DNA of 64,000 nt, from positions 14,837,960 to 14,901,959 of the forward strand of contig OY979717.1 of assembly GCA_963855995.1 (NCBI GenBank), given 5' to 3'. This document shows positions 9,067 to 54,964 of the stretch, one piece after another. A program made the translations under genes and the position numbers. The stretch comes from Muricea muricata. Lineage: Eukaryota; Cnidaria; Anthozoa; Malacalcyonacea; Plexauridae. The notes under the pieces are model-generated. The model did no database searches, had not been told where the DNA came from, and saw only the letters and a program-made list of their open reading frames with translations. Positions within the stretch are counted from its first letter, which is position 1. The number at the start of each line of letters is the position of its first letter.

Positions 9067-9227
9067 TGCTAACTACATTAGCGTGCTGATAGTTTAAAAA
9101 TCGATTACTTACCAATTTTCCACTTCTATAAAGCGCTGCGACGCCTGCGAGAAATAGAGGGTATCGCTTACACACAATTTCGTCAAATATTTTAAATGTA
9201 AACGCTATAATCGCTAGTTAATGCTCT

Positions 9228-9608
9228 CTTATATAACCCTTTCCAATGTATCTTTTCGGTCTATTTTGCAGATTTCTTCTTAGAAAAATTCGTCAAAATT
9301 GATAACTTCTTTATATCATACAGTCTGATACAGTAACCTATTTATTTCCTTGTTAACCACACTGGTAAAATTTTTGGTAAACGGAAAAAATAACGGCTCT
9401 CATCGAAAAGTCATCGAAAAAATTTTATGAAAAAACTGTGCTCATAGTCTTTTTTTACCAAAAAAAAATTTGGAAGAAAAATAACGCCATACCACTTATA
9501 TTAGGGTTATTGAAATATATCATATGAGATTGCATGCTAGCGTAATCAATTTAAATTAGCAGGTTTCAAAAGTTGTCAGCAATTCTGCTACCTTCGAAGG
9601 ATTAGCCT
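9228..9608 (+). repeat. Dispersed repeat family R1, copy 1
   Basis: About 380 bp, starting with the TATAACCCTTTCCAATGTATC block and ending near CCTTCGAAGGATTAGCC. It is found again in the same orientation at 63168-63540 and 63645-64000. It is non-coding and AT-rich, with no terminal inverted repeats that I can see. The three copies differ by scattered substitutions and small indels. Confidence 0.85.
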
Positions 9609-14699: not shown

Positions 14700-15345
14700 A
14701 CACCTTCTATATTATGTCTCACGCAATAGGATTTACTATATTCTGAGTTAGACCGGTTCCTATAGTGACGTCACACGCACGAATTTCGCCCCAGTCTTTT
14801 TTCGCGGTTTTTCGATTATTTACTACGCAAATTTCATTGTTTAGACGCTAATAACTTTTGAACAAACAGCCCGATTTCTATTCTGTTCTATATAACTTCT
14901 ATACTTATTTTTATCATAGAATTCAAAAATGCAAAGTTTCATTTTCTGACATGGGCACTTTAAGAAATTCTGGATAACTTTTAGCCGAATATATATTGAC
15001 GCAGATTTTGAGCTTAATCGAGCATATATGTGAATTCATTTCTTAATTTTACAATGAGTGCCTGTGGTCATGCATGTTCCGCTATTCACAATCAACAATA
15101 TTTCTGTTCTATACTTAACGAACTTTTACATTTCCTGAACTGATAAATGCGCCTTCGTCAGTTAATCGAGAAATATCTAGCATTAATTTATTTTTGAGTT
15201 TGTTTTCTTCGATGTACCGCGGGTTGTATATAGATTATTTACCTTGAATAAATAATTAGATCAAAGTTGTGGAAAAATGTCGACGAATCACGACTTAAAT
15301 TGTTTAAAGTCAAAAGATTCTGTTAGAAAACGTCTTCAAAAATAA
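14700..15345. other. Gene-free stretch
   Basis: AT-rich sequence with no recognisable repeat or exon. It would contain the THAP gene's promoter, but no clear TATA or other element stands out. Confidence 0.4.
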
Positions 15346-15346
15346 A

Positions 15347-15467
15347 TTAAGTTAGTTAAATACCTCGAAAGTCGGGATATATGTCATATACAGCCCTCGG
15401 ACGCTGCGCGTCCTCGGGGGCTGTATTTGACATACATCCCTCCTTCTCGGTATTTAACTCTAACTTA
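15347..15467. repeat. Hairpin with GC-rich loop (hairpin class H)
   Basis: GTTAGTTAAATACC to CAGCCC on the left pairs with GGGCTGTATTTGACATA to GTATTTAACTCTAAC on the right. The loop is TCGGACGCTGCGCGTCCTCG. The roughly 50-bp arms carry few mismatches. Confidence 0.75.
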
Positions 15468-15840
15468 TCTTCAACACCTGTTTGAGGATTTTCACAGGAA
15501 GACAAGTCCTTTTAAAAATTTTGAAATCAGGTTAATTCAACTTTTCAAAACACATTGCTACATCACCAGATCAGTGTACATGACTCACAAAATGTGCAAA
15601 ATCATCTCACAAGTCACAATAACGCGACAAGGGGGTATGGGCTTTTAACGACCAATTCATACTTGTATTAACATGCTTCTCGAATTCTTTAGGAATGCAA
15701 CTTGTCTTATACTCCTGGAAAAAGAAGAGATGTGTTATCAAAACTAACTTTGCCAAACGCCCATGTGGGCAGTGCAGTTAAAAACACGCAAACGTTGGGT
15801 CTTTTGCACTTTCACAAATAAAACATAAATAGTTCTAATT

Positions 15841-15941
15841 AACAATTAGATTACGAGCTCAAGATTTCTATGCGGTGATAGGGGCGAAGCCCGAGTCAAC
15901 TATCACCGCATAGAAATTGAGAGCGAGTAATCTAATTGTTT
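15841..15941. repeat. Hairpin with GC-rich loop (hairpin class H)
   Basis: AACAATTAGATTACGAGCTC begins a 45-bp arm matched by the complement that ends CGAGTAATCTAATTGTT. The centre is GGGGCGAAGCCCGAGTCAAC. Pairing is almost perfect, which implies a recent origin or constraint. Confidence 0.8.
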
Positions 15942-16046
15942 TAGTAGAATCCGAGATGAATAATTGATTCATAGGCCATTTTGTTAAGAATAATACTACA
16001 TATTGTGTTTGAATTGAAAAAAATACGCCAGGAAAATTGTTGTTTG

Positions 16047-16092
16047 GCTACTCGCTATCTATCGAGGAATAGATAGCGAGTAGAGTAGCCAA
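16047..16092. repeat. Short palindrome
   Basis: TGGCTACTCGCTATCTATCG pairs with its near-complement ending GAGTAGAGTAGCCA. The loop is a few bases. It is similar in build to the hairpins at 15347 and 15841, within 700 bp of them. Confidence 0.7.
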
Positions 16093-16113
16093 TCAAATTA
16101 CAGCATAGCATTA

Positions 16114-16347
16114 CTATGCTAGTATTATTCTACTAATAACCTTTAGTGGGTGAGTGAAAAAGATATGATCAAATGAAGAATTTGGCTCCAAAACTTGGGT
16201 CGTATTTTCCACCAGATCGTGTAGTAATTCACATTTGTTCGAGTTATTGGCCGAGGTTACAAGATTGTAGTTAACAGATCTGCAACACGTATGAGCGAAG
16301 CAGTACTCCGTGCGTGCGCTTTTTGATAAAACACTGCACACTTTCAT
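16114..16347 (-). CDS. PAN/apple-like extracellular domain exon
   Basis: The open frame of 77 residues on the minus strand includes YCFAHTCCRSVNYNLV and, after a short loop, NKCELLHDL, then PNSSFDHIFF. This C-x3-C plus S-x-NY plus CELL pattern matches the PAN/apple domains common in secreted and adhesive invertebrate proteins. The sequence before ATG (ACGCGACAG|TA) looks like a splice acceptor, so it may be an internal exon. The 3' boundary is uncertain; only a weak donor (AAG|GTTATT) is seen. No partner exon was identified. The family call is by pattern only. Confidence 0.4.
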   Translation of the reverse strand: MKVCSVLSKSARTEYCFAHTCCRSVNYNLVTSANNSNKCELLHDLVENTTQVLEPNSSFDHIFFTHPLKVISRIILA

Positions 16348-16999: not shown

Positions 17000-17975
17000 A
17001 AACGTAGGCACTCTACGTTACGTCCGTAAATATATACAATTTTTGGGAAACAATTCAGCAATCCCTACGATTTAGCATTAGAGATTTAACTTTTTCGCGC
17101 GTGCACGTACGTTTAAAAACGCCTGAGTATATAAGAACCTTTTAGCTATATTTTTACTGCTTTGTTTATTATCCAGCTTTTCTTTTGTCATATTTGAAGC
17201 GCCTATGACACGAAATTTTGTGCAACTATTTATTGATTGCACACTAAAGATCGCTCAAACTTGTAACTTCTTTGGTACATTTTTCCCAGCTCTCTTTCTT
17301 CTCGTGATATTCAACTTTACTGATTCACATGTAAATTACACAATTTCCCTTTTCCAAGCCCAAATTTTGACTAAATCCCACTGTCAAAATGCACAAATCT
17401 CCCAGTCGTATAGTGGTTGTCTTGTTCAAGTCTTAATTCACTCGCATTTTGTATTTTTTTTTGGCCAATGAATCCCAGTCTTAGTGCATGAAATCCCATC
17501 AGGACCCTCAATATTCTATGCCATGCATGACTACTACGTGCATGCAAACGTCATTCAACTCCATGACACTGCATGTCCACAGCCAACAGTATATCTTTTC
17601 AATCGTTGTAAAATCCCATAAAAGTTATATAATTGTAAATTGCCATGCGAAATCGATAAGAAGAAAATTTAACTTAAATAGTTTAATCTGAATCACGTGC
17701 TTTATAAGGAAGCTTTAATGCCTTAAAAAGTCGCCCTGGGTAATAATTAGAAATACAATAATTTTATCATACAATCTACGTACCCAATATTTATTCCTGT
17801 TATTGAGTAACTTAGTCTTGCCAGTGTTTCACAATCAGAATACATGTCGCCACTTCAATTAACATACTGTGCTAGCTGGAAGTATACATGTATAAGTAAT
17901 CAAGTAATTATGTATAAGTAAGTATGCATCTTTTCCTTTGAGTGTTACCACAGGAAGTAGGTGCTCACTGTTTTT
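17000..17975. other. Gene-free stretch
   Basis: AT-rich, with two overlapping short open frames at 17205-17691 that have no recognisable domain or splice context. Nothing else is seen. Confidence 0.4.
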
Positions 17976-17978
17976 CCA

Positions 17979-18345
17979 ACAGGTCCAGTAAAGATCATCT
18001 CTTATTGATCTATTGTCACTACAGACGAAAACCTAAACTAAACTAACTTTATTTCTACTGGAGTAGCTCTATCAGTTTTAATCTGTTCTTTCTAGAGGTC
18101 CAGTAAGGATTATCGGTTATTCATACATTGTTACTACAGAAAGAAAACTAAACTAACTTACTTCTAACCTAAAGGCGCAGTAGGGATCGTGTGTTATTGA
18201 TCCAGTGTTACTACAGGAGGAATCCTAAACCAATAACTAACTTTATTTCTACTGGATAGCTCTACCAGTTTTAAATTGTTTTTGCTAGAGATCCAGTAAG
18301 GATCATCTCTTATTGATCCACTCTGTTCTTCTTAGAGATCTAGCG
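17979..18345. repeat. Tandem repeat, about 115-bp unit
   Basis: Copies of a unit containing GGTCCAGTAAGGATCATCTC, TTATTGATC, a TACTACAG block and AACTTTATTTCTACTGGA start at about 17979, 18099, 18178 (shortened) and 18290. It ends about 60 bp before the target-site duplication of the large composite element. Confidence 0.75.
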
Positions 18346-18453
18346 ATAAATCTCATCCGGTGGTGAAAACACAGCGAAAATCAAATCATCAAACATCACA
18401 ACCACAGATCATAACCAAAGAGTAGAGACTACAAACAGGGGAAGGTTTAGTCG

Positions 18454-18616
18454 AAAAAGCGTAAGGTGCTTGCGTGATGATTCGTCATGGGCGCCATGTT
18501 CCTAGCCAGTGTCCCAAACAGAAGCATTTCCCCCCTGAAATTTCAAAGATGGGCTACTTCTGTTTAGAGCAACATGGCGCCCATGACGAATCACACGCAA
18601 GCACCTTACGCTTTTT
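18454..18616. repeat. Palindrome inside the left terminal repeat
   Basis: The arm AAAAAGCGTAAGGTGCTTGC and on to GGCGCCATGTT pairs with AACATGGCGCCCATGACG to GCTTTTT. The loop is about 70 bp. The right terminal repeat has no such palindrome; it goes straight from the terminal block to the TAATAATTCATG block. The left half of the palindrome is present in the element fragment at 54615, so it belongs to the family and was probably deleted on the right. Confidence 0.8.
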
Positions 18617-18834
18617 GGTAATAATTCATGTTCTACATACACGAATATACGACAAACACCCTGCATATCAATAGATGTACACCATCATTAACTGTTATCT
18701 ACTGGTACCCTGTGTGACCCATCAGTACTATGCAATACTATTAATCATTATTAATAAACAACAGTAAGCTACACAGCCTACACTGTGCCAGTTATTTAAT
18801 GTCATCCACTGGCATTCCCCGTCATTAATTGTCA

Positions 18835-19475
18835 TCTACTGTCATTCACTCTCATCTACCGTCATTTATTGTCATCTAGTGTCATTTACTGTCATTCACT
18901 GTCATCTACCGTCATTCACTGTTATCTACCGTCATTCACTGTCATCTACCGTCATTTACTGTCATCTGCTGTCATTCACTGTCGTCTACTGTCATTAACT
19001 GTAATCTACTGTCATGTACCGTCATTTACTGTCATCTACCGCCATTTACTGTCATCTACCGTCATTCACTGTCATCTACCGTCATTTACTGTCATCTACT
19101 GTCATTCACTGTCGTCTACTGTCATTAACTGTAATCTTCTGTCATTCACTGTCATGTACCGTGATTTACGGTCATCTACCGTAATTTACCGTCATCTACC
19201 GTCATTCACTGTAATCTACCATCATTTACTGTCATTTATTGTCATTCACTGTCATCTACCGTCATTCACTGTCATATACCGTCATTCACTGTCATCTACC
19301 GTCATTCACTGTCATCTACCGTCATTTACTGTCATCTACCGTCATTCACTGTCATCTACCATCATTTACTGTCATCTATCGTCATTCACTGTCATCTATC
19401 GTCATTCATTGTCATCTATCGTGATTCACTGTCATTCACTGTCATCCATCGTGATTCACTGCCATTCACTGAATT
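18835..19475 (+). repeat. Minisatellite array, 10/20-bp unit, left arm
   Basis: About 64 copies of a 10-mer of the form GTCATYYACY, alternating as GTCATTCACT and GTCATCTACC to give a 20-bp higher-order unit. The 204-residue open frame here is an artefact of a stop-free repeat. The same array, inverted, forms 24756-25519 and 29847-30090. Its subterminal position in the element suggests, by inference, repeated transposase-binding sites as seen in hAT elements. Confidence 0.9.
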
Positions 19476-19754
19476 CCATATGAAAATAAAAAAATGAGCA
19501 TCATCTCATGTGAAAATGTCATATTTTTGGCCGACTATTTTTTTTAGTACGGCTTTCCCATGGCCCTAGAAATTATAGCAAGTAGTCTTTCAGAATAACC
19601 ATATTTTAGAAACAGTTTATCATAGAAAGCAAAGTTGTTTGGCGAATGAAATTCAAGTTCAAAAAAAAAGTTTTAAATTTAATTTAAAAAACTCGTGGAG
19701 AAATACAAGCAAACTTTTGTTTTTCTCGACTAGCTATAAGAGAATTTCCGGGGG

Positions 19755-20605
19755 GTCGCGTTTAAAAGACATCCAAATAGATCCTAAAATTACATTAGGC
19801 GATACAGAAGTTAATAGAGTAAGTGAAAAAAAACCTTGGGGATTGTGGTTGATGATCAGCGTCTTTGGAGAAATCATGTGGACACTACAATTGCCAAGGT
19901 TTCAAAAGGAATCGGTATGATAAGAAGAATGAAATCTTACGAACCAAAATATACTTTAATGCATGTCTACATTGCCCTAATAATGCCCTATTTTGATTAT
20001 TGTAGCCTTGTGTGGGATACATGCAGCCATTATTTGATTGAAAATTTGCAAAAATTACAGAACAGGGCTGCAAGGGTCATTTCAGGCAAAACGTATGAGA
20101 TTAGATCATGTGAAATTTTATCAGATCTTGGTTGGCAACCACTGGAAAAACGAATGAAATTTAAAAAGGCAGCGTTTATGTATAATATAAAACACAATAA
20201 TTTAAGCAAGCCTATGAAAGATATGGTTGAAATAAGTAATAATGAATTTCATAATTTGCGCAGTAACACTGTTGACTTTCATACCCCTAAGCCTAAAACT
20301 AGCTTTATGAAAAAAAGTATCAGGGGCTTTACTATGGAACAACTTACCAACGGCAGCAAAGCAACAGGGGATAACGATCAGTAAATTTAAAAATATTCTT
20401 GGTAGCCAGTACAGTTTTTAATCCTGTTACAACTTTTGTTATAATTATTTAGTGTGTACTTAGTGTTTAAAGTAAGTGTGTGTAATTGTAATATAGGTTT
20501 TTAATATACTATTTGAACGGCCTCCTGAAAATCAGTTTTTTATGCTCAAGAGTTACCGTTTTTAAAAAAGTTTAAATAATAATAATAAATAATTATAATA
20601 ACAAA
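19755..20605 (+). mobile_element. 3' fragment of a CR1/L2-like LINE
   Basis: The frame 19836-20384 encodes the region after the RT catalytic core: ALIMPYFDYCSLVWD, then LQKLQNRAARVISG, both hallmarks of CR1/Jockey-type ORF2 C-termini. The frame shifts near 19830 in an A-run. The 3' end is an AT-rich tail of AATAAT repeats at about 20575-20600. The insertion point is shown by the inverted paralogue at 24455-24490, where the flanking sequences are contiguous. It is truncated at its 5' end, as is usual for LINEs. Confidence 0.8.
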
Positions 20606-22165
20606 CTTTTTGAAATAGATTTCGAGACAAACGTAAGCGATAAAAGTTTTATTGAAGAACGTTTTGAAGCCATAATGGCCTCATTATCAAGTTCAAATAA
20701 CAAACATAGATAATTTTTACAGTTAAAACATAGGCGGCCCAATTCAGTGTGTAGTTTCATATAGAGGTCCTGATCTCTATATGAAACTACACACTGAATT
20801 GGGCCGCCTATGGTTAAAATTGTTTAAATGACGTTTACAAATGACGTTCACAAATGACATTAAATCAATTGCCTAAGTTAATAAGTTTGAATTTGTGCGC
20901 TAAGACGCGCCAAAATACAATATATATGAGTATAAACAGACAAACAGATAAAACTAAGACAAAGACAGACAATCTAAACTAAAATACATAAAATATTTAA
21001 GCTAAGTAAATAACTTAGCACGTATCGAATCTGATTGTTTGTTCATTGATGGTCGTGTCTTCTATAAAGAGCATTTCAAACAACAGACACTCGAACTTGC
21101 TTCGACATTTTTTTTAGTACTTTGAAGCAACCATCGACTCTCGCTGTATTTTCTCCATGCTCTATTATGTGTTGACCAATCATGGACCTCTTGTGCTCTT
21201 CAATGCGTTGCTTTAAGTGTCGGCATGTATAGCCGACATAATCTGCGTCACACAGATCACATTGAATTTTGTACCCAACGCACTGTCGATTCACAAGAGG
21301 TGCGTTCGTTTCTTCGATGTAGAATTCTTTGGCGATCTTTTTGCTCGAGAAGACTGGTTGAATTCTTGTACCAACGAGATTGCATAGGCTATTAAGCTGT
21401 CTCCTCAACACGTCAGCTGATTTCTGACTCTTGAATGGAACTCGCAATCGCAACACACTCTCTTTTTCTTCCTGATTTACGGGGGCACTTTCTGTTGTGG
21501 TTTGATGTTTCTTGTTGATAAATCTCGAAAATATACTATCTAAGAGACCAGGAGGATATCGAAGACGAAGAAACACTTCTCTCAGTCGCTCACATTCCTC
21601 CGTGAAATACGTCCACGTAGATGATAGCCGGAATGCGCGACTCAACCTGGTGACAACAAGGGCTTTCTTGTAGTTCATATCAACATTACTGTCGAAATAA
21701 AGCAACAATCCAGTGTTCGTGGGCTTGATGTAGACCTTCGTTTCGAGTCGATCATCGTTTTTGATTAATTCTGCGCCAAGGAGTGGTAGTTTGCCTTCGA
21801 CTTAGATTTCCATTGTGAACTGTTGGGAAGGATAGCAGTTGTTGAGGGTTGACAGGAATTTATTTGGATCCATGATTCCATGATGGTGAATTTGTTGATT
21901 GATAAGGGTTTCAATCTTTCATCCAGCCATTTTGCCAACAAGAAATTGTAAGTTCCTGTCGCGGATAGTACTGGTTGTATTGATAGTTGAGGTTTATGGG
22001 TCTTCCCCTTGTCTTCGGTCTCTCGAGTGAAACTGGTTTGAATTTTTCTTGGTCCTTAACACACGCTTCACTTAGTAGTTTCGTGTATTCCGACTGGTCC
22101 ATAACAACAACACCAGTCTCTTTGTGTTGCAACGAGAAGAAGTAAACGAAATTTACCACGAAATT
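20600..22165 (-). pseudogene. Penelope-like element, left copy (degenerate)
   Basis: On the minus strand the frame 21708-21076 holds the end of the RT and a GIY-YIG endonuclease: CDLCDADYVGYT, then LKQRIEEHKRS and IIEHGENTARV. RT plus C-terminal GIY-YIG is diagnostic of Penelope-like retroelements. Upstream (22159-21911) is the region with VVVMDQSEYTKLL. Compared with the right copy it has lost an in-frame block equivalent to 22731-22860 and a larger block spanning much of the RT core, so it cannot encode an active enzyme. Its 3' flank (20600-20720) matches that of the right copy. Confidence 0.8.
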
Positions 22166-22204
22166 CAGCGGAATTATTCAACACTAAGATACGTATGTTC
22201 TCTA

Positions 22205-24470
22205 CAGTCGATTAGAAATCTCAACAAGGATTTGTACATCGTGTTATGAAAGTTCACACCAAGAAGATTGCGACGATGTTATCACGAGAAACGGATGTTG
22301 ATGTACATAGTAAGAACATTTCCTCGTATCGATTGTCCTTCTTCGAAAAATTAGTCTTGTGTAGGGGATTGAAATTCGCTGTTCCTACTCGTGTTTGCCC
22401 AAAAGAAGTCCAAGCATCTTTCGAAAGTTTATACCATAAACTTGAACCTAGTCTTCCAGAAGACAAAAAGGAACTGACAGCAACAACTCTCCGTTCAATC
22501 GCACTGAATTACATTGTATCCAAGCACACAACACCACCAAAATCCCAGTTAAGAGTTCTGAATCAACTAAAGAAACGGAATGACATTGTCATCACGAAGC
22601 CAGACAAAGGGACTGGTGTTGTTGTTATGGATAAGTCGGAATACACGAAATGACTAAGTGAAGCATCTGTTAAGGACCAAGAAAAATTCAAACCAGTTTC
22701 ACTCGAGAGACCGAAGACAAGGGGAAGACCAGTCAAGAACTACCATCCACTGTTGCCGAAAGAGAAACAGCTTCAAACCAGCGTACGGAAAATTCTGCCA
22801 GAGAGAGAAGCGGACAGCGTGTGCCCCAAAGGATCCCGCTTGCTCACCTCTATGGGCTACCTAAGACCCATAAACCTCAACTATCAATGCGACCAGTACT
22901 ATCTGCGACAGGAACTTACAATTTCTTGTTGGCAAAATGGCTGGATGAAAGATTGAAACCCCTATCAATCAACAAATTTACCATCATGGAATCATGGATC
23001 CATTAAAGTTCGTTGAAAAAGTTCGTAGCAAGAAAGTCGATGCAGATGAAATCTTAGTGTCTCTTTACGAACGTTCCCGTTGATGAAACCATCAAGATTT
23101 CAGTCGAGAAAGCCTTCAAAAATAACTGACTTAACAAGACCTACAAGTTAAACCTAAAGAGATCTGATCTAGAGGCACTGTTGAACTTGGCGGTGAAACA
23201 TCAGTTGTTCCAGTTCGATGGCAACTTATATGAGCAAGTGGATGGAGTCGCTATGGGTTCTCCACTTGATCCATTGCTAGCAAATACGTTCGTGTGTTCG
23301 CTTGAGAAACGACTGGTTAAGCAGAAAAAGATGCCTTCTTTCTACCGACGATTCGTGGATGATTCTACCACAAAGCAATCTAGCGTAAAGTCAGCAAATG
23401 AATTCCTGTCAACCCTCAACAACTGCTATCCTTCCCTACAGTTCACAATGGAAATTGAAGTCGAAGGCAAACTGCCATTCCTTGGCGCAGAATTAATCAA
23501 AAACGATGATCGACACGAAACGAAGGTCTACATCAAGCTCACGAACACTGGATTGTTGCTTCATTTCGACAGTAATGTTGATATGAACTACAAGAAAGCC
23601 CTTGTTGTCACCACGTTGAATCGCGCATATCGGTTATCATCTACGTGGAAGTATTTCACCGAGGAATGTGAGCGGCTGAGAGAAGTGATTTATCAACAAG
23701 AAACATCAAACCACAACAGAAAGTGCCCCTGTAAATCAGGAAGAAAAAGAAGGTGTGTTGCGATTGCGAGTTCCATTCAAGAGCCAGAAATCAGCTGACG
23801 TGTTAAGGAGACAACTTAATGGCCTATGCAATCTCGTTGGTACAAAAATTCAACCAGTCTTCTCGAGTTCCGTACAAATTCAATGTGATCTGTGTGACGC
23901 AGATTATGTCGGCTATACTTGCCAACACTTAAAGCAACGCATTGAAGAGCACAAGAGGTCCATGATTTGTCAACACATAATAGAGCATGGAGAAAATACC
24001 GCGAGAGTCGATGGTTGCTCAAAGTACTGAAAAAATGTTGAAGTAAGTTCGATGTTGTTTGAAATGCTCTTTATATAAGACATTCGACCATCAATGAACA
24101 AACAATCGGACTCGATACGTGTTAAGTTATTTACTTAGCTTAAATATTTTATGTATTTTAGTTTAGATTGTCTGTCTTTGTCATAGTTTTATCTGTTTGT
24201 CTGTTTATACTCATATACATTGTATTTTGGCGCGTCTTAGCGCACAAATTCAGACTTATTAAACTAAATTGACTTGCGCAATTGATTAAATGTCATTTGT
24301 GAACGTCATTTGTAAACGTCATTTAAACAATTCTAACTGTAAAAATTATCTATGTTTGTTATTTGAACTTAATAATGAGGCCATGATGACTTCGAAACGT
24401 TGTTCTTCAATAAAACTTTTATCGCTTACGTTTGTCTCGAAATCTATTTCAAAAAGTTTGTTGATAAAGA
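22205..24470 (+). pseudogene. Penelope-like element, right copy (degenerate)
   Basis: N-terminal region at 22246-22653 (TKPDKGTGVVVMDKSEYTK, then a stop), a thumb/linker region with frameshifts at 22658-23006, RT at 23181-23700 with GVAMGSPL and the catalytic FVDD where YxDD is usual, and GIY-YIG at 23860-24020 (CDLCDADYVGYT). There are several stops and frameshifts, and the endonuclease is shortened just before its start relative to the left copy. Penelope-like elements insert by target-primed reverse transcription and are often found in inverted or tandem partial copies, which fits the head-to-head pair here. Confidence 0.8.
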
Positions 24471-24755
24471 TTCCCTTATAGATAGTCGAGAAAAACAAAA
24501 GTTTGCTTGTGTTTCTCCACGGGTTTTTTAAATTAAATTTAAAACTTTTTTTCTGAACTTGAATTTCATTCGCCAAATAACTTTGCTTTCTATGATAAAC
24601 TATTTCCAAAATATGGTTATTCTGAAAGACCACTTGCTATAATTTCTAGGGCCATGGGAAAGCCGTACTAATAAAATAATCGGCCGAAAATATGAAATTT
24701 TCACATGAGATGATGCACATTTTTTTTTGTTTTTATACGGAATTCAGTGAATTCG

Positions 24756-25519
24756 AATGGCAGTGAATCACGATAGATGACAGTGAATGACAGTAGATGA
24801 CAGTAAATGACGATAGATGACAGTGAATAACGATAGATGACAGTAATTGACGGTAGATGACAGTGAATGACAGTAGATGACAGTGAATGACAATAGATGA
24901 CAGTAAATGACGATAGATCACAGTGAATGACGGTAGATAACAGTGAATGACAGTAGATGACAGTGAACAACGGTAGATGACAGTGAATGATGATAGATGA
25001 CAATGAATGACGGTAGATGACAGTACATGACAGTAGATGATAATGAATGACAGTAGATGACAGTGAGTGATGGTAGATGACAGTAAATGACGGTAAATAA
25101 CGATAGATGACAGTGAATGACGGTAGATGACAATGAATGACAGTGAATGACAGTAGATGACAGTGAATAATGATAGATGACAGTAAATGACGGTAGATGA
25201 CAGTGAATGACGGTAGATGACAGTGAATGACAGTAGATGACAGTGACTGACGGTAGATGACAGTGAATGACAGTAGATGACAGTGACTGACGGTAGATGA
25301 CAATGAATGACGATAAATGACGGTAGATGACAAAAAATGACAGCGAATGACTATAGATGACAGTGAGCGACAGTAGACGACAGTGAATGACAGTAGATGA
25401 CAGTAGATGACAGTGAATGACGGTAGATGACAGTGAATGACAGTAGATGACAGTGAATGGCGATAGATGACAGGGAACGACGATAGATGACAGTGAATGA
25501 CGATAGATGACAGTGAATG
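24756..25519 (-). repeat. Minisatellite array, right arm, part 1
   Basis: About 76 copies of the same 10-mer read on the minus strand (GATGACAGTG/AATGACGGTA form on +). It is interrupted at 25519 by the Gypsy insertion and resumes at 29847. Open frames of 207-283 residues here are repeat artefacts. Confidence 0.9.
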
Positions 25520-25663
25520 TGTAGCATTTGGGGTGCAACACTTTTGGGACACCTGTGTTAGGGAGTGTAGATCCCAGGACTTTATGAAGGATAGTGGAAT
25601 TCGTTGTGTTTTAATAAAGGTGTAAAAGAATACTTTTACGGGCTGTTAGTAATATACTGGGCA
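25520..25663 (+). repeat. 5' LTR of the Gypsy element
   Basis: Starts TGTAGCATTTGG and ends ACTGGGCA, giving the TG...CA ends of an LTR. It contains AATAAA in its second half. At 144 bp it is unusually short for Ty3/Gypsy. It is identical to the 3' LTR except for one extra C near position 34. Confidence 0.92.
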
Positions 25664-25666
25664 AAT

Positions 25667-25684
25667 TGGTGACCCCGACGAGGC
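25667..25684 (+). other. Primer-binding site
   Basis: TGGTGACCCCGACGAGGC lies 3 bp after the LTR. The leading TGG is complementary to the CCA end of a tRNA. The tRNA identity was not determined. Confidence 0.7.
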
Positions 25685-25729
25685 GACACACGAACTTACG
25701 TACTTTCGTGCAATCCAGTCAGCCAAAAC

Positions 25730-26524
25730 ATGTCTGATAACGAAGCTGAGGCCCCTGACACTGCAGCAACACAAGCAAACGCTACCGGTCACAGCGTCAC
25801 CGACATCGCTGCTGTAGCTCTGAAACTTCCTCCGTTCTGGTCCGCCGATCCTCAGGTATGGTTTGCTCAAGTAGAATCGCAGTTTTTCACTCGCAAAATT
25901 ACCAATCAAGACACAAAATTTCACCACATTGTCGCTTCCCTTCCACCGGAAGTCGCTGTTGTTATACGTGATCTTATCATCAACAAACCGCCTGATCATG
26001 CTTATGACGCGCTGAAAACCACACTAATACGCCGCACAGCGGCCAGTCGTACGAAGCGGTTGCAGCAGTTATTGTCTGCTGAAGAATTAGGCGACCGTAA
26101 GCCTTCTCAACTTCTACGTCGATTCGAGCAGCTTCTTGATGGCACCAGTAGTGACCATCCATTGATACGAGAGGTGTTTCTACAACGGTTACCTGGAAAT
26201 GTACGACAACTCCTTACAGCCACCACGACTGAGGAGACGCCCCTCGACGAGTTGGCTCAGAAAGCTAATAGGCTCATGGACGTTCCATCCCACAACATCG
26301 GCACCATTCAGCCTGACACCCATACCCTCGCGACACTCCATGCCGAGCTCCACGACCTCAAACAAACGATGGCAGCTTTTACAAAACGTCAAGACCAACC
26401 TTCCGCAAAGAAACCACAAGAAGAAACCGACAACTCCTCATCTAATCTATGCTGGTATCACCGCCGCTTTGGGTATAAGGCACGCAAATGTACATGCTCG
26501 GGAAACGAGCAGGTCGGCAAGTAG
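25730..26524 (+). CDS. Gag protein of the Gypsy element
   Basis: Intact frame of 264 residues. It begins [10 protein letters not shown] and carries a capsid-like helical region ([20 protein letters not shown] near residues 30-50) typical of this group's gag. The C-terminus holds a nucleocapsid-like cysteine/histidine motif ([14 protein letters not shown], about residues 240-253), a variant knuckle rather than the standard CCHC. Gag forms the particle that packages the element RNA. The frame ends at 26522-26524, after a -1 slippery site that leads into pol. Confidence 0.9.
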
Positions 26525-28512
26525 CGACGGCGACCATGCTGACCAATGTTAGGAGCCGTCTCTTTTTTGTAACAGACAAGTTTTCCCGGAAACAATTTTT
26601 AGTTGACACCGGAGCGGAAGTAAGTGTTATCCCCCCTTACATGACTGGCCCGCCTTTACAACCAATTAGCATTGCCTTAGAAGCGGCAAACCACAGCAAA
26701 ATCAAAACTTATGGTAAACGTTCACTAACTCTGAACCTTGGCATATGCCGTAAGTTGTCCTGGGATTTTGTTGTAGCTGATGTAAAATTCCCTATCATCG
26801 GCGCTGATTTTTTACGTTATTATGGCCTATTGGTTGATGTGCGGCATAATACCTTATTGGACGCCACTACATTCCTGAGTGTTCATGGCACAGTTTCCAA
26901 AGTGTGTTCTGTTAGTCCTATTCTGGTCGAGCCACCTAAATCTGAGTACCTTGACATCCTCAACGAGTTTCCAACTATCCCCCAACCCGTCACGCAAGAA
27001 AGAAGTGTCAAACGCAACATTACCCATCATATTGTGACTAAGGGCCCACCAGTGTATTCGAAGCCTCGCCGTCTGGCCCCTGAGAAGCACAAAATTGCTA
27101 AATCAGAGTTTGATAATCTCTTGGCACTCGGAATCATTGCCCCTTCCCTGAGCTGTTGGGCCTCCCCTTTGCATATGGTCCCCAAAAAGGCTCCAGGCAC
27201 ATGGAGGCCATGTGGGGACTACCGAGCTCTAAATAATAATACGGTTCCTGATCGCTACCCTATTCCCCATATCCAAGATTTTACATCTAACTTACATGGG
27301 GCGACAATTTTCTCGAAGATCGATTTGGTCCGGGCTTATCATCAAATCCCAGTGGACCCAAAAGATATTCACAAGACTGCAATTACCACGCCATTTGGCC
27401 TTTTTGAGTTCAAGCGAATGCCATTCGGCCTTCGCAATGCTGCCCAAACGTTTCAAAGATTTATGGATCAAGTTGTGCGAGGACTTGATTTTGTATACGT
27501 TTACATTGATGATTTATTAGTGGCTAGCTCCTCCCCTGAAGAGCACGAACAGCACCTTCGCCAGCTTTTTGCGCGCCTTGCAGAGTATGGTTTGGTTATT
27601 AACCCTGACAAGTGCGAATTTGGCAAATCGGAACTCACTTTCCTGGGCCATCACATTAGCAAGGATGGCATACTTCCCTTGCAAGAGAAAGTGCAAGTAA
27701 TCCTCGATTTCTCCCTCCCCTCGTCCACCAAAAAGCTCAGAGAGTTTTTGGGACTTGTCAATTTTTACCACCGATTTATCGACAACTGCGCCACACTCCA
27801 GGCACCACTCATCGCCTTGCTGACTCGGGCAGATCAACTAAAATCAAGGCCACAGTGGACAGAGGAGCTGGAGACAGATTTCAACAAGCTTAAACAAGCT
27901 TTAGTAGCGGTTTCGCAGCTTATCCATTGGCACCCATACGCTGAAACCAGCTTAGTTGTGGACGCCTCGGATGTCGCAGTGGGGGCAGTACTCCAGCAAA
28001 AGATCGGTGGTGCATGGCAACCCTACGGGTACTTTTCCAAGAAACTCAAACCAGCAGAAACCCGGTATAGTACTTTTGGGCGTGAGGAATTGGCAATATA
28101 CTTGACCATCAAGCATTTTCGCCATTTACTAGAAGGTCGCCCATTTTACGTGCTGACCGATCACAAACCCTTGACTTTTGTCTTTAACCACAATTCGGAC
28201 AAATATACGCCAAGAGAGACCCGACAATTGGCATACATCGCAGAGTTTACGACCGATATTCGCCATATCCACGGCAAGGATAACACAGCCGCTGATGCCC
28301 TTTCACGACTTCAGGTCAACGCCGCTAGCTCATCAACGTCTTCCCTGGATTATGACAAACTGGCAAATGCTCAAGCAGAAGATCCTGAAATCCAAGAGAT
28401 TCTTCAAGCTAAGAACTCTATACATTTCACGAAGGTCAACTTGCCAATGACGGACAAACCGGTGTTGTGCGATGTATCTACGGGAAACCCCAGACCGTGG
28501 GTGCCCAAATAA
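26488..28512 (+). CDS. Pol: protease, reverse transcriptase, RNase H
   Basis: Open in the -1 frame relative to gag, so the initial ATG at 26488 is unlikely to be the true start. Protease active site DTGA at about residues 40-43. RT with [14 protein letters not shown], the [11 protein letters not shown] block and catalytic YIDD at about 339-342. RNase H with [20 protein letters not shown] and a C-terminal ADALSRL. Domain order and motifs are those of Ty3/Gypsy. The frame is closed by TAA at 28510-28512, directly upstream of the integrase and in the same frame, so this stop truncates what should be one polyprotein. Confidence 0.93.
26500..26535 (+). promoter_or_regulatory. Programmed -1 frameshift signal between gag and pol
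   Basis: The heptamer GGGAAAC (26500-26506) lies in the gag frame as G GGA AAC, the exact X XXY YYZ arrangement for a -1 slip. Pol is open in the -1 frame across this point, and gag terminates 16 bases later. After a 5-base spacer, GGTCG (26512-26516) can pair with CGACC (26531-26535), a possible stimulatory stem. The heptamer type is an established -1 slippery sequence; use here is inferred. Confidence 0.8.
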
Positions 28513-29667
28513 TTTAGAAGAGCAGCCTTTCTCTCCTTGCACGAATTGTCCCATCCAGGGATAAACGCCACCCGGAAGCTCGTCGTATCCCGTTTTATTT
28601 GGCCCAAGATTAACGTTGATGTTCGACAATGGACAAAAGAATGTTTGGCATGCCAACAGGCAAAGATACATAGGCATACAGCTACCCCTCTCGGACGATT
28701 CGAACTGCCGAACAGTCGGTTTAGTAACGTCCACATAGACCTCGTCGGCCCACTTCCTCCATCCAACGGTTTCACATACCTGCTCACGTGCATCGATCGT
28801 TTCACACGGTGGTCAGAAGCAATTCCTATTAGCGACATCTCAGCCTCAACCGTTGCCAAAGCCTTCTTGTCGGGTTGGATGGCCCGATTTGGCGTACCAT
28901 CTACAATTACCACCGATCGCGGAGCACAGTTTACGTCACAGCTGTGGCAGGAACTTACTCGCTTGCTCGGGACAAAGCACATCCGCACGACAGCTTATCA
29001 TCCCATCGCCAATGGGATAATCGAGCGTTTTCATCGTCAATTGAAAACCTCTCTCAAGGCTAAATTAACATCCAACACGTGGGCAGACTCGTTGCCTTTG
29101 GTACTCCTGGGCTTACGCAGTGCGTACAAAGACGACCTTCAAGCGTGCACGGCCGAACTTGTCTATGGTACCACGTTATGCCTCCCGGGACAATTCTTTG
29201 ACGCCTCCGCCCGTAGCTCAGTTAATCCTACATCCGACTTGGTCTGTAAGCTCAAACAGACAATGCAAAAGCTCCAAGCTACGCCTACGAAACTGCACAC
29301 CCGAACCACATACGTGAGCAAGAAATTAGACACGTGCACTCATGTTTTCGTCCGACAAGATCATGTGCAAAAACCGTTAGACATGCCATATAAAGGTCCA
29401 TATCGAGTTATACGCAGAGCGCGCAAGTATTTTATACTGGACCTGGATGGGCGACGAGATAGTGTCTCCTTAGATCGGGTAAAACCAGCATTCATTGATC
29501 ATTCATGCGACGATCGAGACGACTCAAGGGCAGGGGATGCCGACCCTCAGTTGGTGGATCCGGAGACACCAGGACTTGTGACTGCGCAAGCCGGAGAATT
29601 TCCCCTCTTGCCTCACACAACAAGATCAGGCAGAACTGTACATACACCAAAACGTTATGCAACATAA
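28513..29667 (+). pseudogene. Integrase part of pol, cut off by one in-frame stop
   Basis: Continues in the pol frame immediately after the TAA at 28510-28512. It has the zinc-binding H-H-C-C module (HELSHPG to CLACQQ), then the catalytic D,D,E residues in [21 protein letters not shown] and [12 protein letters not shown]-terminal domain runs to [12 protein letters not shown]. Nothing else is broken, so this copy seems to have been intact until recently, or the stop is a sequencing error. Integrase would join the cDNA to the host chromosome. Confidence 0.9.
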
Positions 29668-29681
29668 GGTTGCAAGACACT

Positions 29682-29696
29682 AGAGGGGGGGGGGGG
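29682..29696 (+). other. Polypurine tract
   Basis: AGAG followed by a run of G (12 in all), ending 3 bp before the 3' LTR. This is the expected plus-strand primer site. Confidence 0.8.
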
Positions 29697-29699
29697 TAT

Positions 29700-29842
29700 T
29701 GTAGCATTTGGGGTGCAACACTTTTGGGACACTGTGTTAGGGAGTGTAGATCCCAGGACTTTATGAAGGATAGTGGAATTCGTTGTGTTTTAATAAAGGT
29801 GTAAAAGAATACTTTTACGGGCTGTTAGTAATATACTGGGCA
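29700..29842 (+). repeat. 3' LTR of the Gypsy element
   Basis: 143 bp, identical to the 5' LTR apart from one missing C. It is followed by the resumed minisatellite. Confidence 0.92.
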
Positions 29843-29846
29843 AAAA

Positions 29847-30090
29847 TGACGATAGATGACAGTGAATGACGGTAGATGACAGTAAATGACGGTACATGAC
29901 AGTGAATGACGGTATATGACATTAGATGACACTAGATCACAGTGAATGACAGTTGATGACAGTAAATGACGGTAGATGACAGTGAATGACGATAGATGAC
30001 AGTCAATGACGGTAGATGACAGTAAGTGACTGTAGATGACAGTAAATAACGGTAGATGACAGTAGAGGACAGTGAATGACGGGGAATGCC
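29847..30090 (-). repeat. Minisatellite array, right arm, part 2
   Basis: About 24 copies of the same 10-mer in the same orientation as 24756-25519, from which it is separated only by the Gypsy insertion. It passes directly into the right terminal repeat of the composite element. Confidence 0.88.
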
Positions 30091-30333
30091 AGTGGATAAT
30101 TAACATTAAATAACTGGCACAGTGAAGGCTGTGTAGCTTACTGTAGTTTATTAATAGTATTGCATAGTACTGATGGGTTACACAGGGTACCAGTAGATAA
30201 CAGTTAATGACGGTGTACATCTATTGATATGCAGGGTGTTTGTCGTATATTCGCATGCGTAGAACATGGAATTATTGCCCGCGTTTTTGACTGAACCTGT
30301 CCTCTCTTTGTAGTCTCTGCTCTTTGTCATAAC

Positions 30334-33300
30334 CATCGTCATAACCATAATTGCTAGCTCGGAGTCTGTCGACTTGCGCCGCGCACGCATTCGGTATTTC
30401 GGTGTTCCGGCCGAAGTACGGCAATTTCCGTATTTCAATTTTTTTCTTCTCCGCACGGAACATGTTTGAAAATCCACCAGGTTTTATCTATCAATTCTAT
30501 CATAATTCGAAGGTAGTATGCTTTATTTTCTATCAATATTTGTTGTAGAGTGTCTAGATTGCTGATACAGATGAGAATGAGAACGATCGAGCGTGAAATT
30601 GGTGTAATATTAAGTAACAAAATTTTTAAATTTCTCAGTATTTTGCATATGTTTGGTTGTGAAAGAATTCTAGATTTAGTTATAATGAAGAGTAATTGTG
30701 AGTAATTAATGAGTAATGCCTTATTTGAAGAACAATATGCAATGTAAAGATTATAAAATTGACGTGATCTTGTAGAGACAATGTTTTATCTTTTAGAAAA
30801 ATCTTTTTCGAGCTAAATTTTTACAATTCCCCCCCCCCCCCCCCCCCCCGTTCTGGTGAATATAATTGCCAATGGGCGAGGGAGTAAAACACCAAAGTAG
30901 GCAATATTGAAGGTTTATGTGTTGAATAATAAACCGACAGTAAATTCTATGTACGAAGGAGTTGCATAGACAAATTTTGGGTCTAGGGTGTGGCTTAGTG
31001 GGTTTGTGGGTGCACAGAGTGTGATCCTGTTAGCTTCAGTAAGCTTAATGCATGCAAGGGGAGTGAAGATTGATTTATTCCAGTTTTAGACAACTTTTGT
31101 TAGGAATTTAAGGCAGCACTACTTGTAAATACAGTGGTTCAAAATATCTATGAATGTTAATATTGTGCCCTTCATGGACATGAAAGCTTCCAGAAGAAAA
31201 AACCTGGCATAGCTTTTTTTGACATATCTAAGATAATAAAGTCTTACAGTCTTACATCTGTTAGAAACAGGATACCACCAGGTGCAGATTCAAGACAATA
31301 TAATGCTGGATAGTGCTTAATTTGCTTGTTCCATTCACTATCCAAATTATCCTAAATGTTTCCAGGTGGAAGCTAAAGAATGTTCAAGTTGTTTCCAGAT
31401 GATTTGTTGATGATGAAATTATGCAAATGATCATCACTGAATCAAACGTGAAAGGTATTTTCTTCTTTTTCTTATATATTGTCAATGATGTTGAAATATC
31501 CTTAATCACATCCCTCTCTAATATTTTTTTAAAAACATTTCTTAAGATATTTGCAAGTTCAAAGAATGTTCAAATTAAGATTTTGCCAACCCAAGAGACA
31601 TGACAACCAAGGACACTGTCAATGGAAAGTATAAAAAGGTCCTTATTTTTCTTTCCTCTCATTGAAAACAAAGTGCTTTGAAAATTACAAAAGATTAGTA
31701 GCTGTGCATATTTCTCACTGTTCAGAGTATAAGATAAGTCAATGACAACCACTTTAAGTTAAACTGTTGTTTACTTTTTTATTTATCTGTCCAGAAATTA
31801 CATCATGTAAACTTTTTCAAATTTTTAAAACCACACAGTTTTCTATGTTTCTCTCTTATTTAATCTCAAGTCAGAGAGCAAGAAATTGCAGAGAAAACAA
31901 AACACCATATATCAAAAAGCAGTTCAGTCAACCAAATAAATGAATTAGTAAATTGATGCAACATGTAATATTTTTTAGCATATAAATTTTTCAGAAAATA
32001 GTAATCCAAATGCCAAAAATAAATAGAAAACCAATTAGTATTATTTAAACTATTAGTCAACTATTTTAAAACTGGAAATTCTGCCCACTTCTGATATGTT
32101 TTGCATTCTTTTGTCAAGTTTTGTACTTTCACTAATCACACAAAGTATGTAATTTTCAAAGCGTTTTGATTTTAAAACAAGGCAAAAAATGATAAACTGT
32201 ATTACTTTGTCATTATTTGTCTTTATGATATGTGCATTGAGAAGATTGAGGTGATTTTATAGAAAATGAAAACATTCTATTATAAGTTCCAATCAGTTTT
32301 TTGCACCATTTATTGTTTGGTAAAGTTTTAATTGTCACATCTAAAACACAAAATAACAACATTGTCAACATACTGTATGTTGCTAAGAAAATATAATATG
32401 GGTTCCTTGTTTACCATCTCAGTCTTCTCATGTTTAAATCAACATTTGTTTGAAAGTTTGAAACGTTTATCTGGAAGTCACCAGGAATATTACACATGGG
32501 TCCTTAAAAACAATTTGATTCAAATTCCCCAATGGTCATAAAGGCAATTCAAAAAAAGTTTAAAGAAACTTTGTACTTACCAAATCCAGCATTTCATAAT
32601 TTTTTACTGTCTGTAAAAATGTTTGGTTTTGAAACTGACCTTGTGATTTTCAGAAATAACTTCTAAAGCTTTTGATTAGCAATTACATTATATTTTTTAT
32701 TGCAGAGTGGAACTTGTTTGAATAAATATGAACTGAAGCAGCGAACTTAATACCTAATTTTGTGACAGATAAAATAAATATATTGACATTATGAGTGAGA
32801 ATGGATGCTGCAACCAGGCACAAAATATTTTAGTGACAGAAGAAAAGCAAGGGAATATTAAAAAAAGTTTAAAGTTAACTGTTTCGTAAAAGAGTTGAAT
32901 AAATTTTATTTTGTGCAGTAATTCTTGTACGACATTGTTTTAAACCAAGAAAAAAAAATAAGAAAGACAAGCTATGGAAAGGAAGCTTTCTTCAGTAAGT
33001 TATGCAAGTTGATCCACAGACAACATGACTGCGAGTGAGTCAGATAAAGGCATCTGGATAATTTTGTTTCTTTTCGTGACAAGTTTCTTTCACATTGCAA
33101 ATTATTTAACCAAATCATGATGCTTGTTTTATATTTTGTACTAAATTCAACCCATTTTCAGATTGGAATAATGATGAATTATTTTTAACTTTGGTTTGAT
33201 TGCATTTTATTTTATGAAACAGTTTATGTTTGACATTTTGTTGGCTGGTTGTGACAAATGAAATTATTTTCATGGTTTTCAATGTTATTGCTTTCCCTTC

Positions 33301-33903
33301 AGTTCAAATTTAATCTTACATAGTTTCACTTTGTCTATAATTATAGTAATAATAATGTACGAAAACAGGTTTACATGGCTTTTGAACATGGTCTTTCCAA
33401 CAAGTAAGTAAAGATAAACTTATACTTCAAAGCAATTTGTTTTTAACCTGACAATGATACCTTCCCAAATTTGCAAAAATTCAATCATGTCATCTTTTGA
33501 TTTAAATTCAATTCAGAATATTCAAAAATATTTGATTGTTAATTTCAAATTAATATTCGATGTTTTTTATTATTTTTCTTTTGATGTTTCTGTTTGGCTT
33601 TTTTGAGGTTGATACTGAGAGCACATGTAGTTAGTTAACAGGACAATCTGACGTTTCGTTTTGGAACATGAAATTGAAAATCGTGCAAAAAATTAAATAG
33701 TTCAAACTTTCCTGCTCTTGAATAACTTTAGATAGTTGAAATGTTCAAAATAAAAAAATGGTAGAGTGAAGAAATACATGAGAATCGTTGAGCTTAAAAC
33801 TTTGAACAACCTACAAAAAATGTTTTGAACCTTCTTTGCAAGAATGCAAAACAAACAAAAAATAAAATTTAAGAAAACGTGCGTTTCTAAAAGCATAAAT
33901 GTA
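30334..33903. other. Gene-free AT-rich stretch
   Basis: A 21-base C-run lies at 30829-30849. The minus-strand frame that starts MFRAEKKKIEIRKLPYFG at 30463 runs into the end of the composite element and so may be a disrupted exon, but this is weak. The rest looks intronic or intergenic, with no repeat structure that I could recognise. Confidence 0.35.
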
Positions 33904-35458: not shown

Positions 35459-35460
35459 TA

Positions 35461-51492: not shown

Positions 51493-51699
51493 TACCTCCT
51501 CTGTCTCTGTGTGAGTTGTAGTAGACTCAATATGTCTTCGAGCAGATAATTTGGAAATGTTGGGCGAACTTGAAAATCCTCACTCCTCTTTCTTCGTTGC
51601 TATTTTGATGAAGACAAGCTGTTCCCCATCAAAAACTTGATGAAATTAGTGGCCAAAAACGCTGAGCCTTTTGAGTTTAGGTAAAGTTGACTGCCATTC

Positions 51700-53610: not shown

Positions 53611-54964
53611 ATGAGTGATTTCGGGACAATTCCTGCCAATGTCCAAGAGCTCCATGCTAATGTTGGAAGCCGACGTGCACGAGGCGAAGGCTTTGCGATT
53701 TTATTGCAAGAGAACAAAGAAAGTAAGTATATAGGAAATGCATTGTTGTCTCCCTAGCTTGTGATTTTACAGGCTAGTTTATCGTAGTAATTTATACCCG
53801 GGAGTACAAAGCTAATCACAAAGAACTATAACACTACAATACCTCAACTACAGAGAACGAATATGATTAAAATGTCCTAAGCCAGTAGAAACCGTTCAAT
53901 CGTACGAATGTGACCGGTAAAGTCCTTCAGTTAATGAGGCTATTCGTTGGTTAGTAATGAGGCATTCAAGTTTTAACAAAACCTTATTCATTTGACCAGG
54001 GTTTTGTAGGGCTACCTTACACCTTGATATTCTAGCAAACTACTTCATTCACCAAAGAATTTTACAGATTTGCCCATTTGTCTTCATTTCTTCATCGGTA
54101 AGGACGGACAACATCGATTTACTGATGGTGAATTGGGTCACCAGCGGTACCGACGGAAAGGGTTTTGGAGGGCAACCTTTGGTACCAAAGCTAACTGCCT
54201 AATTCACCAAACGGTTTTACCAATTTAACAATGGTGTGTTCATTTCTCTATGGGTACGGACGAACACCGATGGTAGAAATAATTTCACCAAAGTAACCGT
54301 TGGTATGCTCGCTATAGTACTGGACGGCTCTCTCGCCTTTGATGAATCATCTTTTCCCGTTTGTACTCCAAATGACGATAGGCTGGATCACACAAGCAAT
54401 GTTTCAAAAGACAATTTCTTAAAGAGAACAACATTGCTGTTTTTTCCATTCCAATTCATAATTTGTTCGACGGGCCGCAGATTAGCAAATAAATAAGACG
54501 TGTTTATTTTAGCTTGCCTATTTTCAAACAAGCTTCAACATGATAGTTCATTAATTAAAATAGTTTATTTTTAACATTGCTGTTTTTCCATCGTAATTGC
54601 TGCCTCCCCTCAGGCAAAGAGTAGAGACTACAAAGAGGGGCCACTTCATTCAAAAAAGCGTAAGGTGCTGTCGTCATGATACGTCATGGGCGCCATGTTC
54701 CTAGCCTGTGCCCTAAACAGAAGCATTTCCCCCAGTATTAATAGCCATTTTTAATATTTTAATATTTTTTTATTTAATATACATCAAGGCAATAAAATTT
54801 TTAGTGTTCAGTCTAGAGGAAAGCAATGTGCTTCCATGAGTTTGTCGGCACTTTCTTTTGGTTTTTTGTTTTGCTTTTCAGACCCACAACTCCTGCTATC
54901 TCGGCTATTAGTAAAACACGGAGCACGACTTTACGGAGCAGTAGAAAAACCTAAACCCTTATGA
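53611..54964 (+). CDS. Two-exon gene for a 64-residue protein, unknown function
   Basis: Exon 1 is 53611-53722 (MSDFGTIPANVQELHANVG to LLQENKE), ending at a strong donor (AAAGAAA|GTAAGTAT) in phase 1. Exon 2 is 54882-54964, after a long pyrimidine tract and TTTTCAG; it continues in the matching phase as NPQLLLSRLLVKHGARLYGA and stops at TGA. Total 195 nt, 64 residues. Two independent strong splice sites, matching phase and protein-like composition (helical, basic) make it convincing. The intron holds a fragment of the composite element's end at 54615-54733. No signal peptide or membrane segment. I do not recognise the family. Confidence 0.6.
54615..54733 (+). mobile_element. Terminal fragment of the composite element family
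   Basis: About 120 bp starting CAAAGAGTAGAGACTAC and running to CAGAAGCATTTCCCCC match 18416-18536 with few differences, including the left arm of the palindrome (GTCATGGGCGCCATGTTCCT). The match stops at the palindrome loop. It shows that the 18.4-30.3 kb element has relatives in this genome. Located in the intron of the 53611-54964 gene. Confidence 0.85.

Follow-up and report, generated by a model that had tools for sequence, protein, structure and literature searches.

The FB element of Drosophila is a foldback-type element with tandem repeats in its arms. Tetris of D. virilis (PMC4079207) is described with repeats of ca. 220 bp, the repeat unit being partly traceable to the terminal domain, and Tm1 of root-knot nematodes (PMC3169594) with repeats of ca. 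14 bp, both with duplications of 8–10 bp. Galileo, of the P superfamily, is reported to enlarge its arms by tandem repeats and by recruitment of inner sequence as inverted copies, and recombination and conversion between arms are proposed there (PMC3573991). Among retroelements, the report on the Penelope-like elements of Adineta vaga describes an inverted arrangement, mostly head to head, with duplications of 8–10 bp and a 31-bp tail (PMC3846280), and a purified Penelope protein of Anolis, PAc, is reported to cleave and extend both strands (PMC11167929). Here, a structure in which foldback and Penelope-like sequences occur together was analyzed. It lies at positions 18416–30326 of a 64,000-nucleotide stretch from the anthozoan Muricea muricata (hereafter the window; C2:14837960–14901959 of the genome searched here, which totals 453 Mb in 74 contigs). 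A first-pass annotation had described it as one 11.9-kb hAT-like composite transposon, of no standard class, carrying retroelements between minisatellite arms.

Direct reading of the region, together with self-comparison for the arms, showed that the mirror-image structure is real and close to a large palindrome, as the annotation had it. From outside to inside, the inverted arms contain an end block, a minisatellite, a segment of ca. 270 bp (named S) and Penelope-like copies placed head to head, and the mirrored unit proper spans 18617–30279 (Table 1). The structure is, however, a nest of several mobile elements, each of a known kind, and not one hAT-like composite. At a probability that we put at about 0.82, it was built stepwise: a miniature inverted-repeat transposable element (MITE), X, came first, followed by a foldback element, F, and then by S and the Penelope pair, after which the arms were made alike and three later insertions hit. 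The 11.9-kb unit as first described is not one element, X occurring unfilled at a paralogous site.

Table 1. Features of the nested structure and of a further X copy, in window coordinates.
Feature	Position	Strand	Evidence or remark
X left target duplication TCATAAC, 7 bp	18409..18415	+	flank comparison with L004 and other X copies
MITE X, left larger part, palindromic CAAAGAG MITE	18416..18616	+	intact 250-bp copy at L004
F left target duplication CGCTTTTT, inside X	18609..18616	+	dropping 8 right-flank bases best fits empty site
F left terminal inverted repeat (GGTAATAATTCC...)	18617..18790	+	arm alignment, genome search
F left 10/20-bp minisatellite	18794..19470	+	repeat scan, self-comparison
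Segment S, left arm, related to middle of ca. 650-bp high-copy element M	19479..19745	-	arm alignment, genome search
LINE-like 3' fragment, left arm, boundaries approximate	19746..20599	+	translation reading; absent from mirrored right-arm site
Penelope-like element, left copy, 5'-truncated, internal deletions	20600..22125	-	self-comparison, arm alignment, translation
84-bp hairpin MITE in left Penelope copy	20729..20812	+	direct reading; right arm is unfilled site
Right Penelope-like copy, 5'-truncated; RT and GIY-YIG signals weak	22126..24469	+	arm alignment, profile searches
Palindrome loop, without mirror partner	22126..22603		within right Penelope copy
8-bp tandem duplication ATCATGGA x2	22983..22998	+	also in left copy near 21884, absent from 5 other copies
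Segment S, right arm	24470..24745	+	arm alignment, genome search
F right minisatellite, inner piece	24757..25519	-	repeat scan, self-comparison
LTR/Gypsy element in right minisatellite	25520..29844	+	domain search, LTR comparison
F right minisatellite, outer piece	29845..30097	-	repeat scan, self-comparison
F right terminal inverted repeat	30098..30279	-	arm alignment, genome search
MITE X, right remainder, ends CTCTTTG	30280..30326	+	L004 comparison
F right target duplication CGCGTTTT, one mismatch	30280..30287	+	fit to empty site
X right target duplication TCATAAC	30327..30333	+	direct flank
Second, one-ended X copy outside the nest	54615..54733	+	sequence match within window

The outer tips had been taken for the ends of the mirrored unit, flanked by TCATAAC(C). 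CAAAGAG is indeed present at 18416 and, reversed, at 30326, and TCATAAC flanks the tips directly and exactly, over 7 bp and not 8; the tips themselves, 18416–18616 and 30280–30326, are two parts of a separate 250-bp MITE. A 20-base tip pattern occurred three times in the window against 0.05 expected, allowing up to three mismatches, well above chance. A genome search with 18416–18840, in which 40 out of 605 candidates were scored, gave at least 104 matches; many of these are pairs in which a single palindromic copy matched on both strands. The query split in this search: bases 1–201 matched short palindromic copies and bases 201–425 a different, small set, five matches, excluding the full own match, covering the F part only. 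Among 17 X copies drawn from the better matches, 12 had an exact direct flank of 7 bp, one had 8 bp and four had none; the 12 include the paralog of the window site and one copy (L028) whose flank lies itself within an X tip, and the copy starts at three loci (L006, L017 and L026) are those set by local alignment, unrefined. The CAAAGAG MITE X is a family of its own, and its ends are found as independent insertions. Its duplications are mostly not the 8-bp ones of hAT elements; their length would fit a Galileo-like element of the P superfamily, a candidate assignment for X. The further X copy of Table 1 matches the left tip at 87% along 119 bp, ending near the hairpin loop; no partner end for it was found in the window.

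The paralogous site, L004, separates X from what lies within it. At C2:11012555–11012804, 3.8 Mb from the window on the same contig, the whole 250-bp X stands between the same TCATAAC flanks with nothing inside. The surrounding stretch (C2:11011055–11014265) matches window positions 17875–18616 (87%), 30280–31113 (88%) and 31109–31369 (87%), with ca. 400 extra bases on its right side relative to the window. Since the paralog has X without the insert, the locus was duplicated with X in place and the window copy later gained 18617–30279; precise loss of the insert at L004 is less likely than its never having been there. A single hAT-like composite with CAAAGAG ends would account for the matching tips and the direct 7-bp flank, but the unfilled X contradicts it, and against it stand the mostly 7-bp duplications of X and the divergence of the outermost tips, which are identical at 40 of 46 bases and thus differ more (6/46) than the remaining mirror (p = 0.025); we consider it very improbable. 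Another candidate, one P- or hAT-like foldback uniting CAAAGAG tips, minisatellites and Penelope, was dropped after the genome matches split and the empty site was found.

The insert in X starts with GGTAATAATTCC and finishes with GGAATTATTGCC. When the window flanks were joined, L004 was fitted best with exactly 8 right-flank bases left out (score 965 versus 960 for the next), so that the duplication of F is CGCTTTTT versus CGCGTTTT, 8 bp with one mismatch, as read from a single copy and a paralogous site. The F end gave 14 genome matches (14 of 14 candidates scored), of which two were the window's own. Five strong ones fell at four loci, namely C1:67.36, C1:76.99 and C2:8.37 Mb, with one each, and C2:6.95 Mb, with two ends of which one is truncated, and these loci hold the F end together with the minisatellite; the seven weaker ones covered ca. 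55–95 bases of the end, with no minisatellite within 1.5 kb. The loci at C2:6.95, C2:8.37 and C1:76.99 Mb have in common an inverted inner arm and core, at 87–97% identity, which makes F a family with a canonical form of ca. 4 kb, running from the end through minisatellite, inner arm and loop, and back. Both complete ends were found at none of the four (C1:67.36 and C1:76.99 Mb have one end; C2:8.37 Mb is without the left end). At C2:6.95 Mb the F copy adjoins AAAAAGCG in an X-like tip, by eye the same target reversed, and the alignment extends through the window's right tip at 78%.

With long inverted arms, subterminal tandem repeats and ends common to several copies, F is a new minisatellite-armed foldback family of an already known kind. 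The annotation was right in recognizing a foldback-type element with subterminal minisatellite arms. We propose that F is a non-autonomous foldback DNA transposon, with end GGTAATAATTCC and 10/20-bp minisatellite arms. No transposase was seen in ten open reading frame (ORF) pieces from three F loci; three of the pieces gave retroelement domains (BEL/Pao in two, long interspersed nuclear element, LINE, in one); the F core holds a BEL/Pao element at C2:8.37 Mb and a LINE at C1:76.99 Mb. The inverted 10/20-bp arms themselves were recovered by repeat scan and self-comparison. Minisatellite words were common to the eight arrays compared, in differing proportions, the shortest array being without one of four words. 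One unit sits within the F end itself (alignment scores of 29–34, which at most one in 2000 shuffles attained), suggesting that the array grew from that end. No Penelope pair was found between F ends at the other F loci (four read over 20 kb each, seven weak ones over ca. 3 kb).

Two further observations concern F copies. In the one at C2:8347400–8367399 (L016/L015), the BEL/Pao element of the core bears a 267-bp direct repeat of 100% identity, at 9121–9387 and 15239–15505 of the joined stretch, and is probably a recent insertion. A hairpin-bearing repeat at 15836–16134 of the window matches part of the C2:8.36-Mb F copy at 79%.

The Penelope-like pair meets head to head, as first described. 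Its reverse transcriptase (RT) signals are weak (NCBIfam group II RT at 1.1e-6 and Pfam RVT_1 at 0.015, neither reaching its curated cut-off; PDB at 0.0088), as are those of GIY-YIG (0.021 and 0.045, below cut-off), and the frames are broken, RT and GIY-YIG now not being in one frame; we take the family to be Penelope from these signals and from known motifs. The RT region gave 19 genome matches (17 of 17 candidates scored), which we grouped by place into 14, the window included. Head-to-head pairs were present, within ±1.5 kb, at seven of the 13 other places, with differing truncation points and 3' ends outward, the left partner at C3:31.87 Mb being reduced to 80 bases; the remaining six have either one copy or fragments. 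Of six pairs read, three had clear target duplications of the pair itself, namely AACAAAAAAC, TATTAAC and ACTTTTTA, of 10, 7 and 8 bp. Inverted, 5'-truncated copies with their own target duplications, as expected of Penelope with endonuclease, were thus observed. At several loci the left copies end ca. 25–30 bases short of the right ones. F end, minisatellite, S and X were absent, at E 1e-3, from all 17 stretches compared around Penelope copies outside the window, one of which (C1:67.37 Mb) sits 10.8 kb from an F end that lies beyond it. Since such pairs occur elsewhere without F, the head-to-head arrangement needs no foldback element; it is a common insertion form of this family here.

These dimers also bear on an origin of the whole mirror in a single Penelope event, in which reverse transcription of two read-through transcripts (Penelope, S, minisatellite, F end) would have started at both target nicks, the products being joined head to head. 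Dimers are common in the family, the Anolis protein is reported to cleave and extend both strands (PMC11167929), and read-through would mirror the Penelope–S junction exactly. Both arms, however, stop at GGTAATAATTCC, a boundary also present at F loci without the Penelope pair, and S, minisatellite and F end are missing from the 17 other Penelope stretches, so that we judge such an event quite improbable.

Segment S is related to the middle of M, and at least 40 matches were obtained with it, including the two of the window (40 of 82 candidates scored). M is ca. 650 bp long and high-copy, its copies being ca. 91–100% alike, with terminal inverted repeats of ca. 100 bp that are 77–80% alike (L045–L062), and it looks recently active. 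A minisatellite match of at least 100 bases was found at none of 18 other S loci.

Alignment of the arms gave an identity of 147/153 for the F end, that is 96%, so that the alikeness of the inner terminal sequence stands and its earlier value of ca. 90% was understated. Identity was 250/266 for S and 124/129, 436/454, 448/473, 135/140 and 120/127 for five Penelope blocks. Differences in F end (6/153), S (16/266) and Penelope (60/1323) were homogeneous (p = 0.52 for these three blocks, p = 0.82 for seven), all three showing the same arm divergence of 4–6%. By codon position, differences were evenly spread (13/16/20, n = 49, p = 0.47), with no sign of selection. In addition, both window Penelope arms carry the 8-bp tandem duplication of Table 1, whereas five other copies that span this position lack it. 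Combined, the equal divergence, the common duplication and the even codon positions indicate that the arms stem from one template and then drifted. The arms would have been formed or made alike jointly, and copying from one arm to the other is the most likely means. A single two-ended insertion would suffice for the Penelope pair alone; S and the F ends are most simply accounted for by adding such copying between the inverted arms. Template switching, as invoked by the annotation, survives in this modified form, with one duplication common to the Penelope arms and one level of divergence along the mirror.

Long-read libraries are known to yield artefactual long palindromes, and a palindromic chimera in the assembly could imitate such a structure. 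The arms, however, differ by ca. 4–6% in a neutral pattern, and their insertions and deletions are not the same, which renders this explanation hardly credible. Had F moved into X, by an F transposase, as a finished palindrome formed elsewhere with S and the Penelope pair inside, the Gypsy, LINE-like and MITE insertions coming later, the same features would follow: one level of divergence across F ends, S and Penelope, the duplication common to both Penelope arms and the 8-bp duplication at the outer F boundary. Neither S nor a Penelope pair lies between the ends of any other F copy examined, however, and in-place copying between arms yields the same equal divergence; we hold this course of events to be unlikely. 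Doubtful, too, is the general proposal that a foldback transposon turns a retroelement landed in its core into its own inverted arms and then moves the whole palindrome, the window copy being such a unit. If true, class I cargo would be carried between class II ends.

Three insertions are confined to single arms. The Gypsy element, correctly identified before, has long terminal repeats (LTRs) at 25520–25665 and 29700–29844 that differ by one 1-bp indel, and is flanked by AATG at 25516–25519 and 29845–29848. The hairpin MITE is flanked by GTTAAAA at 20722–20728 and 20813–20819. The LINE insertion of the annotation stands as LINE-like by reading of the translation, the insert giving no match to a Pfam family.

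In the stepwise nest, X, with its mostly 7-bp duplications, would have inserted first, and the locus would later have been duplicated, the paralog keeping X alone. F would then have entered X at CGCTTTTT with an 8-bp duplication, and its core would have gained the M-like S and a dimer of Penelope copies placed head to head. Copying between inverted arms, as proposed for the long terminal inverted repeats of Galileo, would next have made both arms alike over F end, S and Penelope, and the Gypsy element, the LINE-like fragment and the hairpin MITE would each have hit single arms later. The order within the entry of S and Penelope and the homogenising of the arms, like the copying mechanism, is what we infer. 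Several observations weigh against this course. S beside the minisatellite was found only in the window, no intermediate backs the S/Penelope entry step, and the cause of the close mirroring of S and of the Penelope–S junction is a matter of deduction; at C8:9.73 Mb (L047, C8:9732055–9735286, one of the 18 other S loci), an M element has a Penelope 3' piece on each side, the two being oppositely oriented. The F arms differ by 3.9% versus 4.5% for Penelope, whereas they should be older had Penelope entered an older F. The F duplication carries a mismatch and is without confirmation from a second copy, both ends of F having been found complete in the window copy only. Finally, a Penelope copy at C1:67.36 Mb lies 10.8 kb from the only F end of that locus; as the case of L047 also shows, such elements come together elsewhere too. 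This locus was considered as a relict of the same composite and rejected: it has a single Penelope copy, no S and no second F end in 20 kb.

No tRNA was found in the search for tRNAs and no Rfam family at curated scores; a permissive Rfam search of 18400–30400 gave 12 sub-curated matches, mostly microRNA models on two hairpins, the hammerhead ribozyme not being found. As expected for a eukaryote, the X tip pattern matched nothing in viral and prokaryote collections, the S pattern and Penelope protein nothing in viral contigs, and S nothing in phages. Literature titles and abstract beginnings, a partial coverage in which published repeats were not compared by sequence, held no account of such an element. 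Elsewhere in the window, 48569–51579 contains pieces of LINE-type reverse transcriptase and endonuclease on the minus strand; 33902–34490 and 34843–35460 form an inverted repeat pair of 91% identity over 619 columns, spaced by 352 bp; and 602–860 and 1061–1323 form another, of 98% identity, with 29-bp tandem repeats.

The locus illustrates how insertions nested in one another, together with probable copying from arm to arm, can look like one giant transposon; here the layers are told apart by a paralogous empty site. Foldbacks of a kind known from flies, nematodes and plants gain a minisatellite-armed family, and a set of head-to-head Penelope dimers is added, three of them with clear target duplications, which fits a two-ended insertion mechanism. 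Like Tetris and Tm1, F has long inverted arms composed of terminal domain, short tandem repeats and inner domain, with a variable number of repeats, and as in Tetris the repeat unit is linked to the terminal domain, one F unit lying inside it. F repeats are of 10/20 bp, unlike the ca. 220 bp of Tetris and ca. 14 bp of Tm1, and the likeness drawn here is one of structure. The 7-bp duplications reported for Galileo (PMC3573991) resemble those of X, whereas F has 8 bp; Galileo recruits its own sequence, whereas the mirrored inner sequence here is foreign (S, Penelope), and unlike in Galileo a transposase was not seen for F among the ten ORF pieces. Unlike endonuclease-bearing Penelope elements, the window copies are both defective and embedded in F, and a direct pseudo-LTR (pLTR) was not identified in them. 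With those elements (PMC3846280, PMC11167929), the window family has in common a weak GIY-YIG match, head-to-head copies and 5' truncation. Its duplications of 7–10 bp compare with 8–10 bp in Adineta vaga, and the shortfall of ca. 25–30 bases in left copies with the 31-bp tail described there (PMC3846280).

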